Source: Marinilabiliales bacterium
GTDB taxonomy: Bacteria > Bacteroidota > Bacteroidia > Bacteroidales > PUMT01
DNA: 42,638 nt
Reading direction: 5' to 3'
NCBI GenBank assembly: GCA_007695015.1
Contig: REEN01000043.1
Span: 1-42,638 of the forward strand
Below the pieces are notes generated by a model, which saw only the letters and a program-made list of their open reading frames with translations, searched no databases and was not told the DNA's origin. This document shows positions 29,083-42,638 of the stretch, piece by piece. A program made the translations under genes and the position numbers. The first letter of the stretch is position 1; every line of letters starts with the position of its first letter.

Positions 29083-30459
29083 ATGATCATCAGATCTGAT
29101 ATTTACGCGTTTATTCTTCTTTTCTTCCTTGTTTCCTGCGGAAGAGAGCATGATGATGATATCCCGGGTGAAAACGGCAATAACGATAACGACGTATCAG
29201 AGGTTTGTCCGCCGCTTTCCAGGGTCATCGCGGAGGAGATGCCCCTGGATGAACTGCTTGATAAGGTGCAGATGCAAACACTGAAATATTTCTGGGATTT
29301 TGCCGAGCCGGTATCCGGTATGGCGCGCGAACGAAACACGTCGGGGAACCTTGTTACAACCGGAGGAACCGGTTTTGGCATAATGGCCATGATAGCGGGT
29401 GCCGAACGGGAATTCATAGGGAGGGAAGATGTGCTTGAAAGGGTGCTGAAAATCGGCAATTTCCTTTTTAATGCGGAGCGTTACCATGGCGCCTGGGCAC
29501 ACTGGATAGACGGAACAACCGGCAAAACGATCCCCTTCAGCGAGAAAGACAACGGTGGCGACCTGGTTGAAACAGCCTTTCTTGTGCAGGGGCTTTTATC
29601 GGCCAGGGAGTATTTTGACGGTGAAACGCCTTTGGAAGATTCTCTCAGGGCCCTTATTGATACCTTATGGCATGGTGTTGACTGGCAGTGGTACACCCGC
29701 GGGGAGAATGTTCTCTACTGGCACTGGTCGCCCGAATACGAATTTGAGATCAACCTGCCGGTGCGCGGCTGGAATGAGGCGCTGATCGTCTATATACTGG
29801 CTGCCGCCTCGCCCACTTATCCTGTATCACCGGAGGTTTACCATCATGGATGGGCGCGTAACGGCGATATTGTCAACGGAAGGAACTTTTACAACATCCG
29901 GCTTCCGCTGGGAGTTGATTTTGGAGGCCCGCTCTTTTTCGCCCATTACTCTTTTATGGGGCTTGATCCGCGCGGGTTAAATGACAGTTATGCGGACTAC
30001 TGGGAGCAGAACCGCAGCCACAGCCTTATCAACCACAGGTATTGTATTGCAAATCCAAAAAATTTCTGCCACTACAGCGACTCATTATGGGGCATTACCG
30101 CCAGTGATGATCCTGAGGTTGGTTACCAGGCCCATGCCCCCTTTGGTAACCATGGCACAGACAATGGTACGATTGCTCCCACTGCGGCTCTTTCATCAAT
30201 GCCATATACACCTGAGGAGAGCAGGAAGGCGCTGAACACTTTCTATTACTATCTGTACGATGATCTGTGGGGCAATTACGGGTTCAGGGATGCCTTCAAT
30301 TTTGAGCATGAATGGTTTGCCGGCAGTTACCTGGCAATTGACCAGGGCCCCATTGTTGTAATGATCGAGAATTACCGGAGCGGCCTCCTTTGGGATGTGT
30401 TCATGAGAAATGAACATATTCATAGGGGACTTGATGCTCTCGGCTTTTACTATGACTGA
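29083..30459 (+). CDS. GH144-family (glycoamylase-fold) beta-1,2-glucanase-like lipoprotein, copy 1
   Basis: This 458-residue protein has lipobox FLVSC (Cys19) and an acidic spacer that suggests export to the cell surface. The catalytic region is an (alpha/alpha)6-type barrel with GH144 blocks: VTTGGTGFGIMAMIAGAE, PFSEKDNGGDLVETAFLVQGLL, WYTRGENVLYWHWSPEYEF, ASPTYPVSPEVYHHGW, GGPLFFAHYSFMGLDPRG, and near the end LAIDQGPIVVMIENYRSGLLW. Characterised GH144 enzymes cleave beta-1,2-glucan (sophoran), either as endo-glucanases or by releasing sophorose. By family this is the main degrading enzyme of the locus; activity and chain-end preference are not visible in sequence. Confidence 0.88.
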   Translation: MIIRSDIYAFILLFFLVSCGREHDDDIPGENGNNDNDVSEVCPPLSRVIAEEMPLDELLDKVQMQTLKYFWDFAEPVSGMARERNTSGNLVTTGGTGFGIMAMIAGAEREFIGREDVLERVLKIGNFLFNAERYHGAWAHWIDGTTGKTIPFSEKDNGGDLVETAFLVQGLLSAREYFDGETPLEDSLRALIDTLWHGVDWQWYTRGENVLYWHWSPEYEFEINLPVRGWNEALIVYILAAASPTYPVSPEVYHHGWARNGDIVNGRNFYNIRLPLGVDFGGPLFFAHYSFMGLDPRGLNDSYADYWEQNRSHSLINHRYCIANPKNFCHYSDSLWGITASDDPEVGYQAHAPFGNHGTDNGTIAPTAALSSMPYTPEESRKALNTFYYYLYDDLWGNYGFRDAFNFEHEWFAGSYLAIDQGPIVVMIENYRSGLLWDVFMRNEHIHRGLDALGFYYD

Positions 30460-31452: not shown

Positions 31453-32772
31453 ATGTTCAAGCCAGGAGTAAATGACATCATTATTAAGGCTGCTTTCTTA
31501 TTCGCGTTGATATTAACCGGGTGCGGTGATACGTTAAGGACCGGAGCCCTGACAGATGAAGCACTGCTTGATAAGGTCCAGGAGCAGACCCTGAGATACT
31601 TCACCGATTTTGCTCATCCCGAAAGTGGCATGGCTGTTGAAAGAAGTGATGAAAGGCACTATTCCAACGATGTTGTCACGACCGGGGGAACCGGTTTCGG
31701 CATTATGGCTGTTATCGCTGGAGTTGAGCGCGGATTCGTCAGCCGGGAGGATGCCCTGGAACAACTGACCAGGATCGTCGGCTTCCTGGAGCGGAGTGAA
31801 CGCTATCATGGAGCCTGGTCACACTGGTACTACGGATCTACCGGCAAAACCCGTCCCTTCAGTGAAAAGGACAACGGTGGCGACATTGTTGAAACGGCTT
31901 TCCTTTTGCAGGGACTGCTGACGGCACGGGAGTATTTCGACGGAAACAGTCCCGGTGAAATAACCCTGCGCGAGACAATCACCCGGTTGTGGCACGATGT
32001 GAACTGGCAATGGTACACAAACGGACAGAACCGGCTATACTGGCACTGGTCGCCCGATTACCACTGGGAAATGGATCATCCTGTCAGAGGGTATGACGAA
32101 TGTCTGATAGTTTACATATTGGCTGCATCATCTCCCACCTACCCTGTATCTCCGGAGGTGTATCACCGGGGATGGAAAGAGGGTGAGCATTATCTTAACG
32201 GCAATACCTATTACGGGATCACCCTCCCCCTGGGATTTCCTTACGGGGGCCCGTTGTTTTTCAGCCACTACTCATTTCTCGGTCTTGACCCGCGTGGATT
32301 GCATGATTCGCATACAAGCTACTGGGAACAGAACCGGAACCATACACTGATAAATTACCGGCATTGTGTCGAAAACCCCAACGGCTTTAAGGGGTACTCG
32401 GACAGGTGCTGGGGTCTCACGGCCAGCGATAACCACCTGGGTTATTCTGCGCACAGTCCCACCAACGACCTGGGAGTGATTACACCCACTGCCGCCCTTT
32501 CATCATTCCCTTATACCCCCGAAGAGTCGATGAAGGCGCTTCGTTTTTTTTACGATGAGCTGGGAGAGAGGCTTTTCGGCGAATATGGTTTTTATGATGC
32601 CTTTTCGATCCATCATGACTGGTACGCCGATAATTACCTGGCAATAGACCAGGGACCGATAGTGGTGATGATTGAAAATTACCGTTCAGGCCTGTTGTGG
32701 GAACTCTTTATGAGAAACCCGGAAATACATAGCGGACTTAGGTCCCTGGGTTTTTTTTACAACCACGATTGA
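31453..32772 (+). CDS. GH144-family beta-1,2-glucanase-like lipoprotein, copy 2
   Basis: This 439-residue paralogue of copy 1 shares more than half of its positions by eye and has lipobox LILTGC (Cys24). The same blocks occur: VTTGGTGFGIMAVIAGVE, FSEKDNGGDIVETAFLLQGLL, LYWHWSPDYHWEMDHP, SPTYPVSPEVYHRGW, GGPLFFSHYSFLGLDPRG and LAIDQGPIVVMIENYRSGLLW. The acidic spacer of copy 1 is missing, so the domain sits closer to the membrane. The closeness of the two suggests a tandem duplication, with different substrate-chain preference or location as likely reasons to keep both. It follows a terminator, so it needs its own promoter; I see no clear -33/-7 pair in the short gap. Confidence 0.88.
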   Translation: MFKPGVNDIIIKAAFLFALILTGCGDTLRTGALTDEALLDKVQEQTLRYFTDFAHPESGMAVERSDERHYSNDVVTTGGTGFGIMAVIAGVERGFVSREDALEQLTRIVGFLERSERYHGAWSHWYYGSTGKTRPFSEKDNGGDIVETAFLLQGLLTAREYFDGNSPGEITLRETITRLWHDVNWQWYTNGQNRLYWHWSPDYHWEMDHPVRGYDECLIVYILAASSPTYPVSPEVYHRGWKEGEHYLNGNTYYGITLPLGFPYGGPLFFSHYSFLGLDPRGLHDSHTSYWEQNRNHTLINYRHCVENPNGFKGYSDRCWGLTASDNHLGYSAHSPTNDLGVITPTAALSSFPYTPEESMKALRFFYDELGERLFGEYGFYDAFSIHHDWYADNYLAIDQGPIVVMIENYRSGLLWELFMRNPEIHSGLRSLGFFYNHD

Positions 32773-37897: not shown

Positions 37898-39220
37898 ATG
37901 GATTGGAAAGTTGAAGTTAAAAAGCTTTGGTGGATAGGCTTCTTTTTTCTGCTTGCATATTATATGCCACTTGAAAGTGCCCGTTTCCAGGAAGCTGTTG
38001 CTGCTACTCTCGACCTGGTTCGCTGGTACGCACAAGAGCATGTTATTCTATGCCTTATCCCGGCGTTTTTTATTGCCGGGGTTATAGCGGTTTTTGTAAG
38101 TCAGGGGTCAGTATTGAAATATTTCGGTGCCCGGGCAAATAAATACCTGGCCTATTCTGTTGCATCTGTATCGGGAACTATACTTGCAGTATGCTCCTGT
38201 ACAATTTTACCACTGTTTTCAAGCATTCACAAAAGAGGTGCCGGACTGGGCCCTGCGGTTGCGTTCCTTTATTCCGGACCAGCTATAAATATACTTGCGA
38301 TCATTCTTACAGCCCGTATACTGGGCTGGGAACTGGGAGTTGCCAGGGTGGTCGGAGCTGTTATATTTGCTATTGTTATCGGGCTATTGATGGCGTTTTT
38401 TTTCAGGAAAGAAGAGAAGGAAAAGGAGGAAGCTCAGATGAATATTGCTGCTCCCCCGGAAAAGCGTCCTCTCTGGCAGACTTCGCTCCATTTTTTCACC
38501 CTGGTGCTGATCCTCGTGTTCGCCAACTGGGGAGCGCCGGAGGGCGGAGTTGAGAGCGGAGGATGGTATTTCATCTGGTCGAATAAATGGTATATAACAG
38601 GGTTGCTCGGACTGGTTCTGGCATATTCACTTATAAGGGTTCTGAAAATAGCCTGGTGGAAAGTTGCTGCATCTGCTTTGGCCGTAGTGATTTCATCACT
38701 TGTTTTCCCGGGACCGATGGTGCCGTTTCTTGTAGCTATAGCTGCCCTGGCTGTCATTACATTAACCAGTGATGAAGAAAACCGGGAATGGACCCTTTCG
38801 TCATGGGACTTTGCCAAGCAGATCATGCCCCTTCTTGCGCTTGGTGTTATTATTGCCGGCTTCCTGCTTGGTTCGACTCATGGCGACACGGCAATTGCCG
38901 GTATTATTCCCGACCACTGGATAAGTACCCTTGTCGGCGGAAATTCATTGTGGAGTAATCTTTTTGCTTCAGTAGTCGGCGCTTTTATGTATTTTGCAAC
39001 CCTCACAGAGGTGCCTATCCTTCAGGGCCTGATCGGGTCAGGAATGGGACAGGGACCGGCTCTGGCGCTGCTACTTGCAGGACCGTCACTTTCATTACCC
39101 AATATGCTGGTAATCCATAGTGTGATGGGAACCAGAAAGACTTCGGTTTTCGTGGGACTGGTGATAGTAATGGCAACACTCAGCGGATTGATATATGGTT
39201 CTATAGTATCAACCGGATAA
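37898..39220 (+). CDS. arsP: ArsP-like permease (PF03773 family)
   Basis: This 440-residue inner-membrane permease has two related halves of membrane helices. The CSCTILPLF motif (about residues 98-106) and PAINILAIILTARILG match the permease family that includes the methylarsenite exporter ArsP and also other uncharacterised members. A charged cytoplasmic loop (RKEEKEKEEAQMNIAAPPEKRP, about 170-191) separates the halves. The second half has FATLTEVPILQGLIGSGMGQGPALALLLAGPSLSLPN. Clustering with arsR-arsC-acr3 supports organoarsenical export, but many relatives have unknown substrates. Own upstream palindromes suggest separate regulation from the arsR operon. Confidence 0.8.
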   Translation: MDWKVEVKKLWWIGFFFLLAYYMPLESARFQEAVAATLDLVRWYAQEHVILCLIPAFFIAGVIAVFVSQGSVLKYFGARANKYLAYSVASVSGTILAVCSCTILPLFSSIHKRGAGLGPAVAFLYSGPAINILAIILTARILGWELGVARVVGAVIFAIVIGLLMAFFFRKEEKEKEEAQMNIAAPPEKRPLWQTSLHFFTLVLILVFANWGAPEGGVESGGWYFIWSNKWYITGLLGLVLAYSLIRVLKIAWWKVAASALAVVISSLVFPGPMVPFLVAIAALAVITLTSDEENREWTLSSWDFAKQIMPLLALGVIIAGFLLGSTHGDTAIAGIIPDHWISTLVGGNSLWSNLFASVVGAFMYFATLTEVPILQGLIGSGMGQGPALALLLAGPSLSLPNMLVIHSVMGTRKTSVFVGLVIVMATLSGLIYGSIVSTG

Positions 39221-39247
39221 TACTCTCAAAAAAAGACAACCTGCCAA

Positions 39248-39404
39248 ATCAGCCGTCAGGATAAAGGGGAACCTCAGACCATCGGGCTATTTTTTCAACA
39301 AAACGGCGGACACGGTTGACACGGCGGACACCGCCGTCAATTTTTTCCCGCTTTCAGCGGGATTTTCGGGGGGAGCTTTTTTTACTTGCAGGAAAATAGT
39401 TTTT
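39248..39404 (+). repeat. Direct repeat copy A (about 157 bp) with two hairpins
   Basis: It is near-identical to 41646-41801. Inside are ACGGCGG-ACA-CCGCCGT (39321-39337) and CCCGCT-TTC-AGCGGG (39347-39361), plus two direct ACGGCGGACAC units (39303-39313, 39321-39331). It starts 28 bases after the ArsP stop and lies 205 bases downstream of the abiEii stop (minus strand). No protein frame is conserved with any known family. Bases 39405-39609 show nothing I can name. Confidence 0.85.
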
Positions 39405-39609
39405 TGGCGGAAAAGAAATATGACAAAAAACTATGTGTTGAGGGCATTTATATTTGAGCCAAATTTGAGCCCATTGTGAGCCAACTATGAGCCCACTCCT
39501 TATCCAGCAATATGCCGGGATTCCATAAGGATAATCTCTCGTTATAAACGCTGAGTTGGATAGAAGAGCCTTTGTAATACTTGTGAACAGTGGCATTCAG
39601 ACCGATTTA

Positions 39610-40437
39610 TTATTTACATTTTTCAAATTTTCTCAATTGCTTGTTGAAATCCCTCCACACATCTTTAAAGTTTCGCAGATCTTTAATCTGATGACTTAGA
39701 TTCTTTGTCCATGCTTTCTCAAAAATTTTCTCCTTAGCAATCACTTTTTGAACAAATTCTTTGGAATCATGACCTTTATGTTCTGCTTTCAGTTGAAATT
39801 CGATAAATACATCCTGTAATTCAATGCCTTGTATATTTATTAAGTACTCAAAATCATATAAATCACGTGGTATTGTCCTTCCCATCAGGGCAACCATTTT
39901 TTCAATGACTATTTCCTCCAGACTATAACTTGTAATGGTTACCTCATCCTCTTCCTCAAGATCTGAGTAATTATTCACCATTGGTTTTTTCACAACTTCA
40001 AATTCAAGTTTTTCACCTCTCCCAATATCAGTCTTGATATGATAGCTTTTGCCTCCGAGCGGGCCGATATATTCAATGTAGAATTTAATGGATCCGGATT
40101 CATGAACTTCCTTTGAATCTTCAGTTATAGTCAGATCAATATTGGCAGCCTCTCTGATGTTTCCAAATACTTCATTAAATGCTTTGTAAATTTCTTCATC
40201 CGAAAGTGTTTTTTCCAATGATGGTTCAATCGTGAAGTCAATATCCTCAGAGTATCGGTAGTCCACGATAAAGATCTTTTTTATACAAGTTCCACCTTTA
40301 AAGATTAAAGCATCCTTTAAAATACCATGGCTATAAACACCCCATAATACCCAGGATATAATATAATCCTTTTCAATTTGCTGAGGTCTGACGCCTTCGC
40401 TATTTGCTATTTTCAAAATCTCCTGAGATTTGATCAT
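39610..40437 (-). CDS. abiEii: AbiEii/AbiGii-family nucleotidyltransferase toxin
   Basis: This 275-residue toxin of a type IV system belongs to the DUF1814 nucleotidyltransferase group. Motif I is KGGTCIKKI (Gly48, Gly49, Thr50), followed by RYSEDIDFTI with Ser63, Asp65 and Asp67, the catalytic S-x-D-x-D pattern of the family. Later blocks are IKFYIEYIGPLGG, EEIVIEKMVALMGRTIPRDLYDFEYL, and a Lys-rich C-terminus. In characterised AbiE systems the toxin modifies tRNA or acts with a nucleotide and blocks phage growth; the exact action here is unknown. It overlaps the antitoxin gene by four bases (ATGA) and is read after it. Confidence 0.88.
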   Translation of the reverse strand: MIKSQEILKIANSEGVRPQQIEKDYIISWVLWGVYSHGILKDALIFKGGTCIKKIFIVDYRYSEDIDFTIEPSLEKTLSDEEIYKAFNEVFGNIREAANIDLTITEDSKEVHESGSIKFYIEYIGPLGGKSYHIKTDIGRGEKLEFEVVKKPMVNNYSDLEEEDEVTITSYSLEEIVIEKMVALMGRTIPRDLYDFEYLINIQGIELQDVFIEFQLKAEHKGHDSKEFVQKVIAKEKIFEKAWTKNLSHQIKDLRNFKDVWRDFNKQLRKFEKCK

Positions 40438-41246
40438 GTGAATATTGAGTTTATAATAGTACTTATATCAATATTGATCTTCAAGCCGAATTTTGAGTCT
40501 TTCCGGCCTTGATTTGGACCGGTGGTATCGAGAACTGGAAAACTTGGACCAATTTCTTTTAACATTTCATCATAATGGTTTGTCCAGGTAAGACCGAGCA
40601 ATTCCACAAGAAACAAGTATCTCTTCTTTGTGGCCTCGCTTGCATTACGGTTTAAGTACTCAAGTAATTTCCGATAATCGATTTTTTCCTTTGTTTCATA
40701 CAATGCTTTGCCAATTTCAACCAATCCACCACTTAAATGCGGGCGTGTCAAAGCATCAACAAATGTTTTCTCAAGATCACTGACCATTACTTTATTATGC
40801 TTGTCGATCCATATGTTTTTAAACCCAAAGAATCTTTTTTCTATGTGATATACAAATTGGAATTCAACTCCCCGGATTTTTTTTATGGAAGGTTTTATCT
40901 GTAGATCAGTTACGATAATCTCTTTCAGGCTTGGTTGGGTTATTAATCCATGTACCTGCATTGCTGAATAATATCCAATGTAATATTTTTTACCCCTCAT
41001 TAAATATTTGGCAACAAGGTGCCAATCCGGAACATACTTTTGGGGATCAGCACTTGGAGGGACAATGTAATAAAGATTCCGGCTAAGTTTTATCAACATG
41101 CCCTTTTCAACCATCCCTGAAAGAACTCTCGAAAGATAAATTTTATTAACATCGGGATACTTAAACAACACATCCTGAAAAGTAAAACAATCCTGATCAG
41201 CACCAGAAAACCTTTTAATAATGTCCCAACTAACTGTATTTCTCAT
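40434..41246 (-). CDS. abiEi: AbiEi-family antitoxin/regulator
   Basis: The ATG at 41246 (MRNTVSWDIIKRFSGAD) is preferred to a GTG at 41279, whose extra residues lie in the predicted leader. The 270-residue protein has a winged-helix N-terminal part (DVLFKYPDVNKIYLSRVLSGMVEKGMLIKLSRNLYYI) and an AbiEi-like central domain (YIGYYSAMQVHGLI, PSLKEIIVTDLQIKP, KVMVSDLEKTFVDALTRPHLSGGLVEIGKAL). AbiEi proteins neutralise the toxin and repress their own promoter by binding repeated sites. The four-base overlap with abiEii confirms a shared transcript. Confidence 0.86.
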   Translation of the reverse strand: MRNTVSWDIIKRFSGADQDCFTFQDVLFKYPDVNKIYLSRVLSGMVEKGMLIKLSRNLYYIVPPSADPQKYVPDWHLVAKYLMRGKKYYIGYYSAMQVHGLITQPSLKEIIVTDLQIKPSIKKIRGVEFQFVYHIEKRFFGFKNIWIDKHNKVMVSDLEKTFVDALTRPHLSGGLVEIGKALYETKEKIDYRKLLEYLNRNASEATKKRYLFLVELLGLTWTNHYDEMLKEIGPSFPVLDTTGPNQGRKDSKFGLKINIDISTIINSIFT

Positions 41247-41260
41247 CTTGCAGATATATA

Positions 41261-41341
41261 TTATCCCGTTATTATACACTATTCAGCAATACAAAGATAA
41301 TAAATGTTAAATAATTAACAATTATTATTCGGTTATTATAT
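41261..41341 (-). promoter_or_regulatory. abiE promoter flanked by a repeated site
   Basis: On the minus strand, TTG (41321-41319), 19 bases, then TATCTTTG (41299-41292) is a full promoter match. Two 17-base copies, TTATCCCGTTATTATAC (41261-41277) and TTATTCGGTTATTATAT (41325-41341), differ at three positions and lie on either side of it. They are candidate AbiEi binding sites, with the caution that the area is AT-rich. Confidence 0.6.
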
Positions 41342-41645
41342 ATAATATGATAATTCACAGATAGTAATTACCTGTAATAAATTCTGGTTTGATAAGTCAT
41401 GAATTATCTCTGTGGAGAACCGGGTGGGGGTAGGAAAGTAAAGGACACCGACCAAAAAATGGAAGATGTCCTGTCATGTCGCAAACTTCTGAACGAAGTT
41501 CGAACTTTTTTTCAACAAAAAATTCACAGAGACAATTAGATATCAACATATTACAGATATTTATCAGGGACCACCCCACCCGTCGGGATGCGTTGGCCAT
41601 CAATATTAACCGGGCGACGGGGCTGTTCGGCAGGTCGGCGGACAC
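41342..41645. other. Intergenic stretch with no gene seen
   Basis: Between the abiE promoter and repeat copy B. It holds a small hairpin (ACTTC-TGAAC-GAAGT, about 41487-41501) and a GAAC-GAA-GTTC overlap. A possible frame at 41476-41688 runs into the repeat and shows no family features. The bases GGCGGACAC before copy B echo the motif inside the repeats. Confidence 0.4.
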
Positions 41646-41801
41646 ATCAGCCGTCAGGATAAACGGGAACCTCAGACCATCGGGCTAATTTTTCAACAAA
41701 ACGGCAGACACAGTTGACACGGCGGATACCGTCGTCAATTTTTTCCCGCTTTCAGCGGGATTTTCGGGGGACGCTTTTTTCACTTGCAGGAAGATAGTTT
41801 T
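41646..41801 (+). repeat. Direct repeat copy B (about 156 bp) with two hairpins
   Basis: It shares roughly nine of ten bases with copy A at 39248. The hairpins are kept: ACGGCGG/CCGTCGT (41719-41735), where a C-to-T change leaves a G-T wobble pair, and CCCGCT/AGCGGG (41745-41759). It lies 60 bases after the vapC stop on the minus strand, the same side as copy A relative to abiEii. Similarity stops shortly after TAGTTTT. Confidence 0.85.
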
Positions 41802-41860: not shown

Positions 41861-42232
41861 CTAAAAATCCACAATGACCGAAATAATATCATCTATGGTT
41901 TTAAATCCTTTATCGGCCGTTATTAGCGGAATATTAAGATAATGAGCAGTGGCAGCAATAATGGCATCAGGTAATTTAAGGTTATTGGTTTTTCGAATGT
42001 TAATGGCAGTATCTTTTATACTTCTATTAATATCAATAATCTTACAATTACTTAAAAACCTCCTGATAGTCTGAATTTCTAATGTAGTATGGCCATCAAA
42101 AGAGAGTAATTCCATCTCTGTTATAAAGGAAACCCACAAATCCCTTTCGTAAAGTAGCTCATATACTCTTTCATTACCTTTAAAAAGGTAGATAAGGATA
42201 TTGGTATCGACTAAGAGACTATTCCCACTCAT
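41861..42232 (-). CDS. vapC: PIN-domain ribonuclease toxin (VapC family)
   Basis: This 123-residue PIN-fold RNase starts MSGNSLLVDTNILIYL. Acidic metal ligands are visible at Asp9, Glu41 (ITEMELLSF), Asp89 (LKLPDAIIAATAHYL) and Asp107 (LITADKGF), so it should be active. VapC toxins cut tRNA or rRNA when unbound. The vapB frame extends 14 bases into this gene. The repeat copy B begins 60 bases after its stop codon. Confidence 0.93.
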   Translation of the reverse strand: MSGNSLLVDTNILIYLFKGNERVYELLYERDLWVSFITEMELLSFDGHTTLEIQTIRRFLSNCKIIDINRSIKDTAINIRKTNNLKLPDAIIAATAHYLNIPLITADKGFKTIDDIISVIVDF

Positions 42233-42395
42233 CCCTTATTTCTTTCTGATATTGCAATGGATCAATATGCTGAAATTGAACTTTGCCCATGTACTTCCGC
42301 AGGTTGAATTTGCGTTTCTTTGCTGTAATTTTCTCAATCTCATTGTCAACCTGCGATCGGCTTACAGATTTTTTCACTTCTATTATTTTCCCCAT
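42219..42395 (-). CDS. vapB: VapB-like antitoxin
   Basis: This 58-residue ORF overlaps vapC by 14 bases. It reads MGKIIEVKKSVSRSQVDNEI, then a Lys-rich middle (EKITAKKRKFNLRKYMGKV), then a C-terminal DPLQYQKEIRDEWE. This last block matches the toxin-wrapping end of antitoxins that partner PIN proteins in Bacteroidota (pattern '...DPxxxQxxxRxEWE'). The N-terminal half should be the DNA-binding part, but no named fold is certain. Coupling and position make the antitoxin role likely. Confidence 0.78.
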   Translation of the reverse strand: MGKIIEVKKSVSRSQVDNEIEKITAKKRKFNLRKYMGKVQFQHIDPLQYQKEIRDEWE

Positions 42396-42425: not shown

Positions 42426-42638
42426 ATAAGACTAAATGAATAAGCTTTTTATTGCTTATCAAATAAAATATAATTTGTTTTTCATTGTAAAATCCCGGGT
42501 TTATTAAAAAGTAACCATAAATAAGCAGACTATAACAGGGGCTTAATATGATTCAAATCACAATTATGCCGATTATTGCATGAATAAGGAGTTCCTGATG
42601 CTCCAGGCCTATCCTGTTTCTCTTTACGCGCCGGTTGT

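Follow-up and report, generated by a model that had tools for sequence, protein, structure and literature searches.

How bare toxin-antitoxin (TA) modules, which encode neither a transposase nor an integrase, move is, to our knowledge, a largely open question. The window analyzed here, a DNA stretch of 42,638 nt that makes up the whole of contig C43 in an assembly of 3.4 Mb and 118 contigs (G000), raises this question for an abiE operon near its right end. The operon is bracketed by two direct repeats, and the original prediction was that recombination between them would excise abiE as one unit, or that the unit had arrived that way. What, then, is the unit?

The abiE operon lies between two copies of a longer repeat

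A repeat search of the window confirmed that the repeat pair, first described as ~157 bp with about nine of ten bases alike, is real: direct repeats of 159 nt at 39245-39403 and 41643-41801 share 93% identity on the same strand (blastn E = 2e-63 against each other, far above chance). Both internal hairpins (CCCGCT/AGCGGG and ACGGCGG/CCGCCGT) are preserved as stated, the second being weakened in copy 2 by one or two G-T pairs. Also in agreement with the prediction, exactly one complete TA operon, abiEi-abiEii, lies intact between the repeats according to Pfam and PADLOC. It corresponds to a type IV AbiE module: AbiEii has a nucleotidyltransferase domain, abiEi is located upstream, and the genes overlap on the same strand. 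AbiEii retains GGTCIK and DID, which we take to be nucleotidyltransferase motifs. The abiEi gene starts with GTG, an ATG being located 11 codons further in, and its product scores under the cut-off of the NCBIfam AbiEi model.

The 159-nt repeat is merely the segment common to a truncated copy (R1) and a full copy (R2) of a longer sequence, designated R. A second constant sequence, P, follows R directly in the sense of the tRNA-Pro genes described below, which corresponds to the minus strand of the window. The features are as follows:

37898-39220, plus strand: arsP-type permease gene flanking the array, outside it (Pfam PF03773, E 7e-77)
39245-39448, minus strand: R1, the AbiE cassette's tail in truncated form (93% to R2 over 159 nt)
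39610-40437, minus strand: abiEii toxin gene, 275 aa (Pfam PF08843, E 1e-35; PADLOC AbiEii, E 3e-77)
40434-41279, minus strand: abiEi antitoxin gene, up to 281 aa (Pfam PF09407, E 1e-5; PADLOC AbiEi, E 4e-72)
41410-41477, minus strand: P, head of the AbiE cassette, comprising ATGACAGGACA, a terminator-like hairpin and a C-rich block (93% over 68 nt to the P directly after tRNA-Pro in relative G002)
41478-41801, minus strand: R2, complete tail belonging to the next cassette (VapBC), which terminates in ...AAGTTTGCGAC at 41478 and abuts P (sequence matches and junction)
41861-42232, minus strand: vapC toxin gene (PIN domain), 123 aa (Pfam PF01850, E 6e-19)
42219-42395, minus strand: vapB-like antitoxin gene, 58 aa (frame overlaps vapC and is kept in relatives; antitoxin by position only)
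42548-42638, minus strand: extended head of the VapBC cassette, recurring in contig C37 (91 nt at 95.6% to C37:986-1076)

When full, R comprises ~324 nt. Read from 41801 to 41478, R2 ends with ...GTTCGAACTTCGTTCAGAAGTTTGCGAC, the terminal bases of a full tail being ...TTTGCGAC, and it matches a copy in contig C49 (94% over 303 nt) and one in relative G008 (92% over 296 nt). R1 was extended to 39448 by a 205-nt match of 92% to the C49 copy; it lacks its last part and, as read from the junction, is connected to one half of a hairpin of the GACAACCTGC...GCAGGTTGTC type beside the arsP 3' end. The neighbors at this end of arsP differ in the relatives where that side was readable. P has ~70-150 nt, starts with ATGACAGGACA or a near variant and contains a terminator-like hairpin, in the window running from 41477 to 41410. 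Two hairpin variants with T-rich tails occur, GGACATCTTCCA...TGGTCGGTGTCC and GACAACTTGC...GCAGGTTGTC, and both fold when typed in as sequences (-15.6 and -18.2 kcal/mol). The window hairpin (-15.6 kcal/mol) was not flagged by a consensus terminator scan. A hidden gene in R was rejected given the lack of Pfam matches at E 0.01 for six open frames overlapping R copies, and a known RNA element was likewise rejected, as no Rfam family reached gathering scores in the window. A fold common to R was rejected as well, single-sequence folds of six copies disagreeing by eye beyond short hairpins.

Elsewhere in the window, two nearby open frames (29083-30459 and 31453-32772) contain segments with 70-78% DNA identity to each other, spaced 2.3 kb apart, probably reflecting a tandem gene duplication.

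The repeat pair is part of a longer array that very probably extends beyond the window

A search of the host genome, as suggested with the original prediction, returned four copies of the repeat, i.e. the window pair and a second pair in C49. The latter likewise brackets a TA pair, composed of a ParE-family toxin (Pfam E 1e-7) and a small upstream gene that matches no Pfam family; a HigB/HigA-type pair (Gp49 and HTH_3) adjoins it. With a longer repeat query, C37 was additionally found to begin with a partial copy, and smaller pieces were detected in C25, in C64 and farther along C37. The window's final 55 nt match C37:1-55 without a difference, and because of this exact end overlap C37 very probably succeeds C43. 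C37 contains a partial R, a ParE-type toxin gene (E 3e-11) with an upstream small gene lacking a Pfam match, and tRNA-Pro(GGG). In tRNA sense, the order reads tRNA-Pro(GGG), P, ParE pair, R3 (partial), P, contig link, VapBC, R2, P, AbiE, R1 (truncated), arsP. The repeat pair belongs to this longer array, which very probably continues beyond the right end of the window; its VapBC unit spans the C43-C37 link, which rests on the 55-nt end overlap.

Each of the five P-to-R units in G000 holds a TA pair, namely AbiE, VapBC, two ParE-type pairs and HigBA, the HigBA unit also containing a VapBC remnant. R is truncated or partial in three of the five (R1, R3 and the second C49 copy), while the longer copies are 91-95% alike within the genome. 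On C49, a second HigA 3' fragment (L005 8550-8656) is found past an aldo/keto-reductase-like gene, which sits between R and this remnant and possibly represents non-TA cargo or a rearrangement.

ARAGORN located three intact tRNA-Pro genes in G000 (GGG on C37, TGG on C49, CGG on C25), and P is found behind all three isoacceptors. At the TGG site it is displaced: a second, imperfect tRNA 3' end is located ~170 nt beyond the tRNA, followed by a P-like start, found by motif rather than by blastn, and a hairpin. The same displaced end precedes other sequence in relative G005. Behind tRNA-Pro(CGG), P is accompanied by remnants of VapB, VapC and HigBA, but R is absent. On C64 (24668-24735; L043 5669-5736), an isolated R end is found together with an inverted P piece between two genes, with no tRNA detected by ARAGORN in the 11 kb examined.

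P adjoins tRNA-Pro 3' ends at a constant junction

At the insertion point the tRNA-Pro gene ends with ...CACCCCGAC, and this ...CCCGAC end directly abuts the same P that follows R. The boundary between units reads GCGAC followed by ATGACAGG or close variants, and similar R-GCGAC/P junctions are present in the window, C37 (TTGAGAGGACA), C49 and G008. These four are among six R ends compared; at the C64 locus ATGAC and the inverted P piece come next, and at the sixth, in relative G013, chromosomal sequence. The tRNA end and the R end have CGAC in common, plus GTTCGA upstream, so that the identical core at the junctions is short (CGAC).

To survey the family, we used a tRNA-Pro 3' end pattern allowing up to 3 mismatches, which found 29 places in 15 of 16 genomes. 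P follows at 13 of these, while the other 16 diverge right after GAC. Eleven P sites were recognized directly by motif and one at the displaced TGG end in G000; in G007, the first bases of P differ and the site was assigned through the C-rich block and VapBC. Two of the 13 are weak, one in G006 showing 13 nt before the contig end and one on G012 C120 following an incomplete tRNA. All P sites fall within the genus of the window (13 of 21 places), compared to none of eight places in the sister genus. In five of the 13 cases the contig breaks off no more than 122 nt from the tRNA, as would be expected where a repeat interrupts assembly.

If R were a duplicated target, an empty site should hold a single repeat copy, as had been predicted. 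This was not borne out: 13 of the 16 tRNA ends without P lack any R or P match in the 0.9-10 kb examined, two show merely 15 and 18 nt, and at one (TGG, G005 C125) a 76-nt R fragment lies 2.6 kb away. R therefore looks like the tail of a cassette rather than a duplicated target.

The sister genus provides a view of the other side. On G013 contig C65, one contig end lies inside R, and after ...GCGAC comes CACAATAAAACGC with a different hairpin. The stretch read does not include the tRNA itself; the next three genes have 78, 82 and 67% aa identity to three genes behind tRNA-Pro(CGG) in G014, a genome region with neither R nor P and with two additional small genes in between. This join is what insertion at GAC predicts for the distal side. 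Two traits of a tRNA-targeted element were found, namely exact insertion at the 3' end of an intact tRNA (for TGG at the displaced copy) and sites that are occupied in some relatives (13 of 29) and unoccupied in others (16 of 29).

Cassette DNA is more alike between species than trxB

As a housekeeping comparator we used trxB, the neighbor of tRNA-Pro(GGG). VapBC with its upstream region in G000 is 94.5, 93.4, 93.4 and 93.4% identical to that in G005, G007, G008 and G010 (over 254, 438, 580 and 241 nt; vapB plus upstream region only in G005 and G010), as opposed to 73.5, 73.1, 73.2 and 83.7% for trxB. G002 aligns over 37 nt only and was left out of this comparison. Some pairs that do not involve G000 score lower (G005-G007 83.9%, G005-G010 86.4%, G002-G008 87.0%, G002-G005 76.1%), these alignments including P with its two variants. 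An AbiEii fragment in G012, which is fused to an R piece on C34, likewise reaches 93.6% (514 nt) versus 72.7% for trxB. Furthermore, VapBC resides behind tRNA-Pro(GGG) in G000 (second place, via the contig link) and in G007 (first place), but behind tRNA-Pro(CGG) in G005 and G010 (first place). Since cassette DNA is more alike than trxB and VapBC occurs behind different isoacceptors, we read the sequences as pointing to transfer between species and between tRNA-Pro loci, although the contrast with trxB could partly result from different constraint.

These data also bear on an explanation that needs no current site-specific enzyme. R and P could merely be homologous repeats in an ancestral tRNA-Pro island that grew by duplication and RecA-dependent recombination, with TA genes being swapped between fixed repeats. 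The similarity of the longer R copies within the genome would suffice for RecA, R1 and several copies in relatives are truncated or chimeric, and no recombinase is linked to the cassettes. However, RecA would not choose the identical GAC junction seen behind three isoacceptors and in a second genus, 13 of 14 readable tRNA ends without P offer no R for homologous capture, and the between-species identity exceeds that of trxB. We consider this explanation unlikely.

A candidate recombinase and the comparison with integrons

At the loci examined, no integrase gene is located in or next to the cassettes, many contigs ending nearby. A genome search with PF00589 identified three tyrosine recombinases in G000: on C52 a XerD barely above the cut-off, on C65 a protein nearest to XerC but below the cut-off, and on C103 (8678-10006; L124 2679-4007) a 442-aa protein with Phage_int_SAM_4 (PF13495), a domain of integron integrases. 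The latter passes NF040815 ('site-specific tyrosine recombinase/integron integrase') and has an N-terminal extension of ~165 aa. C103 ends ~296 nt past the gene; neither R nor P was found in the 4.3 kb examined around it, and its last 300 nt do not recur in G000 (next best E 0.07). With the 442-aa protein as query, a tblastn search of the collected loci gave no match outside its own contig, and no relative was confirmed in viral contigs. This recombinase is a candidate for acting on the cassettes, no more.

Its presence invites the interpretation as a lineage-specific chromosomal integron, in which R-end/P would be the attC-like site and the tRNA-Pro end attI. The TA cassette arrays, the single orientation of R relative to the tRNA in both G000 arrays, the similarity of sites within the genome and the short hairpin at the R end are in line with this. 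Yet the integron integrase model TIGR02249 was not reached in a whole-genome search and a protein scan (197.6 versus 265 bits for the C103 protein), no IntI-type insert is visible by eye, and the boundary GCGAC/ATGACAGG differs from the attC core GTTRRRY. Moreover, the recombinase is encoded on another contig with neither R nor P in the stretch examined, and one R fragment is inverted relative to its tRNA (G012 C120). An integron was rejected on the basis of the IntI model and the attC core, and we regard it as quite improbable.

The units carry TA operons

All six P-to-R units, five in G000 and one in G008, contain a TA pair, five different pairs being represented. Another P in G008 precedes a sixth kind, HicAB, without R. 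The expectation that the content beside the repeats varies was thus correct, with AbiE, VapBC, HigBA, HicAB and ParE pairs being found. Counting P sites with at least 388 nt and P-free sites with at least 928 nt of sequence, TA genes from these units were detected at 6 of 8 and 1 of 14 tRNA-Pro sites, respectively, a comparison that is biased because the TA queries come from cassettes. Among all 13 P sites, TA genes or remnants occur at six: three in G000 (one with remnants only), G005 C113 and G010 C26, where vapB alone precedes the contig end and no vapC is present on the contig, and G007 with vapB and a truncated vapC. Five sites show at most 122 nt, and two have no TA genes (G005 C380, 566 nt; G012 C120, 6.9 kb). 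The sole TA-positive site among the 16 without P is in G015, where AbiE is found at a distance of 3.6 kb from tRNA-Pro(GGG), with neither P nor R present. This operon (C38; L097 293-1957) is 82-84% identical to that of the window at the nucleotide level.

Repeats without cargo had been named as a sign against the original prediction, and in part they exist: tblastn with 12 TA proteins detected no TA fragment at six loci with R or P pieces (G010 C5, G004 C21, G005 C125, G008 C256, G012 C120, G000 C64). Most of these pieces are short or truncated, and we read them as decay. TA modules are common in islands. That the loci merely combine a hot spot beside tRNA genes with a generic intergenic repeat dispersed in the genome, the TA link being coincidental, gains some support from these six loci but is very improbable in view of the TA pair in every P-to-R unit and of P at the exact tRNA end by motif in 11 places, at a displaced end in one and by the C-rich block in one.

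Discussion

We propose, with a probability of about two in three, that small, non-autonomous TA cassettes of the structure P-TA-R, site-specifically integrated at tRNA-Pro, form an array at the end of the window. This proposal builds on what is demonstrated here: how the units are structured, that their exact junctions recur, that P lies behind all three isoacceptors, that tRNA ends occur with and without P, and that cassette DNA is more alike between species than trxB. In tRNA sense, a unit would consist of P, one TA operon and R, and would integrate right after the last bases of tRNA-Pro or a displaced copy of that end, units stacking head to tail. The tRNA would stay intact, its own terminator being displaced to the far end while P provides a new hairpin. 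A tyrosine recombinase would act in trans, with R-end/P serving as attP and the tRNA-Pro end as attB, the two being identical only over CGAC; cassettes would be transferred horizontally, and the TA pair may contribute to cassette retention.

In this array abiE probably arrived as a unit. The original prediction thus holds insofar as abiE behaves as a discrete, acquired unit with conserved ends, but this unit is P-TA-R aimed at tRNA-Pro and not the segment between two repeats. Excision through the repeats is possible, as adjacent R copies could recombine homologously to delete or duplicate one unit such as abiE; the loci examined contain no example.

Several known systems share traits with these cassettes. 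Arrays of integron cassettes in Vibrio are rich in TA modules. In chromosomal integrons, small cassettes are described as forming arrays, each ending in a near-identical repeat specific to the lineage (PMC8876359), as is the case here; unlike them, the present units start at tRNA-Pro 3' ends, have a constant head with a hairpin and a boundary other than GTTRRRY, and no linked intI/attI was found. Tycheposons, as portrayed in PMC11389934 and PMC10872708, are elements of 4-200 kb with xerD, and hitchhiking tRNA-associated elements or satellites may rely on others for mobility. The tRNA border and a presumed tyrosine recombinase are common to both, whereas the units described here have only ~1-2.4 kb, carry just a TA operon and are stacked. 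Arrays of integron cassettes in Vibrio are rich in TA modules. Head-to-tail stacking at an att site and second-site use, as seen here, are reported for SGI1, which measures 42 kb, encodes its own integrase and resides at the thdF 3' end, but its arrays consist of copies of one element (PMC2297512) rather than differing cargo. The A. boonei casposase targets the tRNA-Pro 3' end, often in tandem, and casposons are described with terminal inverted repeats and 15-bp target duplications (PMC9939771). By contrast, no terminal inverted repeats were found here, the cassette ends matching inverted in only 4 of 20 bases with CGAC as shared core, and a casposon or another transposon with inverted ends and ~15-bp target duplication was rejected. 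Among the literature matches listed (titles and abstract beginnings, mainly open access), no description of TA cassettes stacked at tRNA-Pro was seen, which is weak evidence of absence.

A wider spread of the cassettes found no support. Of 393 genomes of the order, two contain the R end when up to 3 mismatches are allowed, and both belong to the family of the window. The exact pattern had eight matches in a genome collection, with ~7.5 expected by chance as estimated from pattern length and collection size, and only one of them belongs (L091, the G013 contig; record PUMT01000209, MAG Bacteroidetes bacterium isolate B1Sed10_220R1). Plasmid and phage records contain no match to R or P, and a plasmid or phage origin was rejected on this ground; viral contigs likewise lack the exact R end. 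The host group is a little-known group of Bacteroidetes.

Tentatively, and with less confidence than the array itself, one may imagine a TA-dedicated gene-capture system that is integron-like in logic but built on tRNA: any tRNA-Pro 3' end would serve as entry, head and tail would be common to all cassettes with only the TA operon being swapped, and an enzyme encoded elsewhere, the 442-aa C103 protein being a candidate, would insert new units beside the tRNA. The constant head and tail together with the exact address make the mobility of TA modules testable, and P-R cassettes may also explain the frequent contig ends at tRNA-Pro in these genomes.
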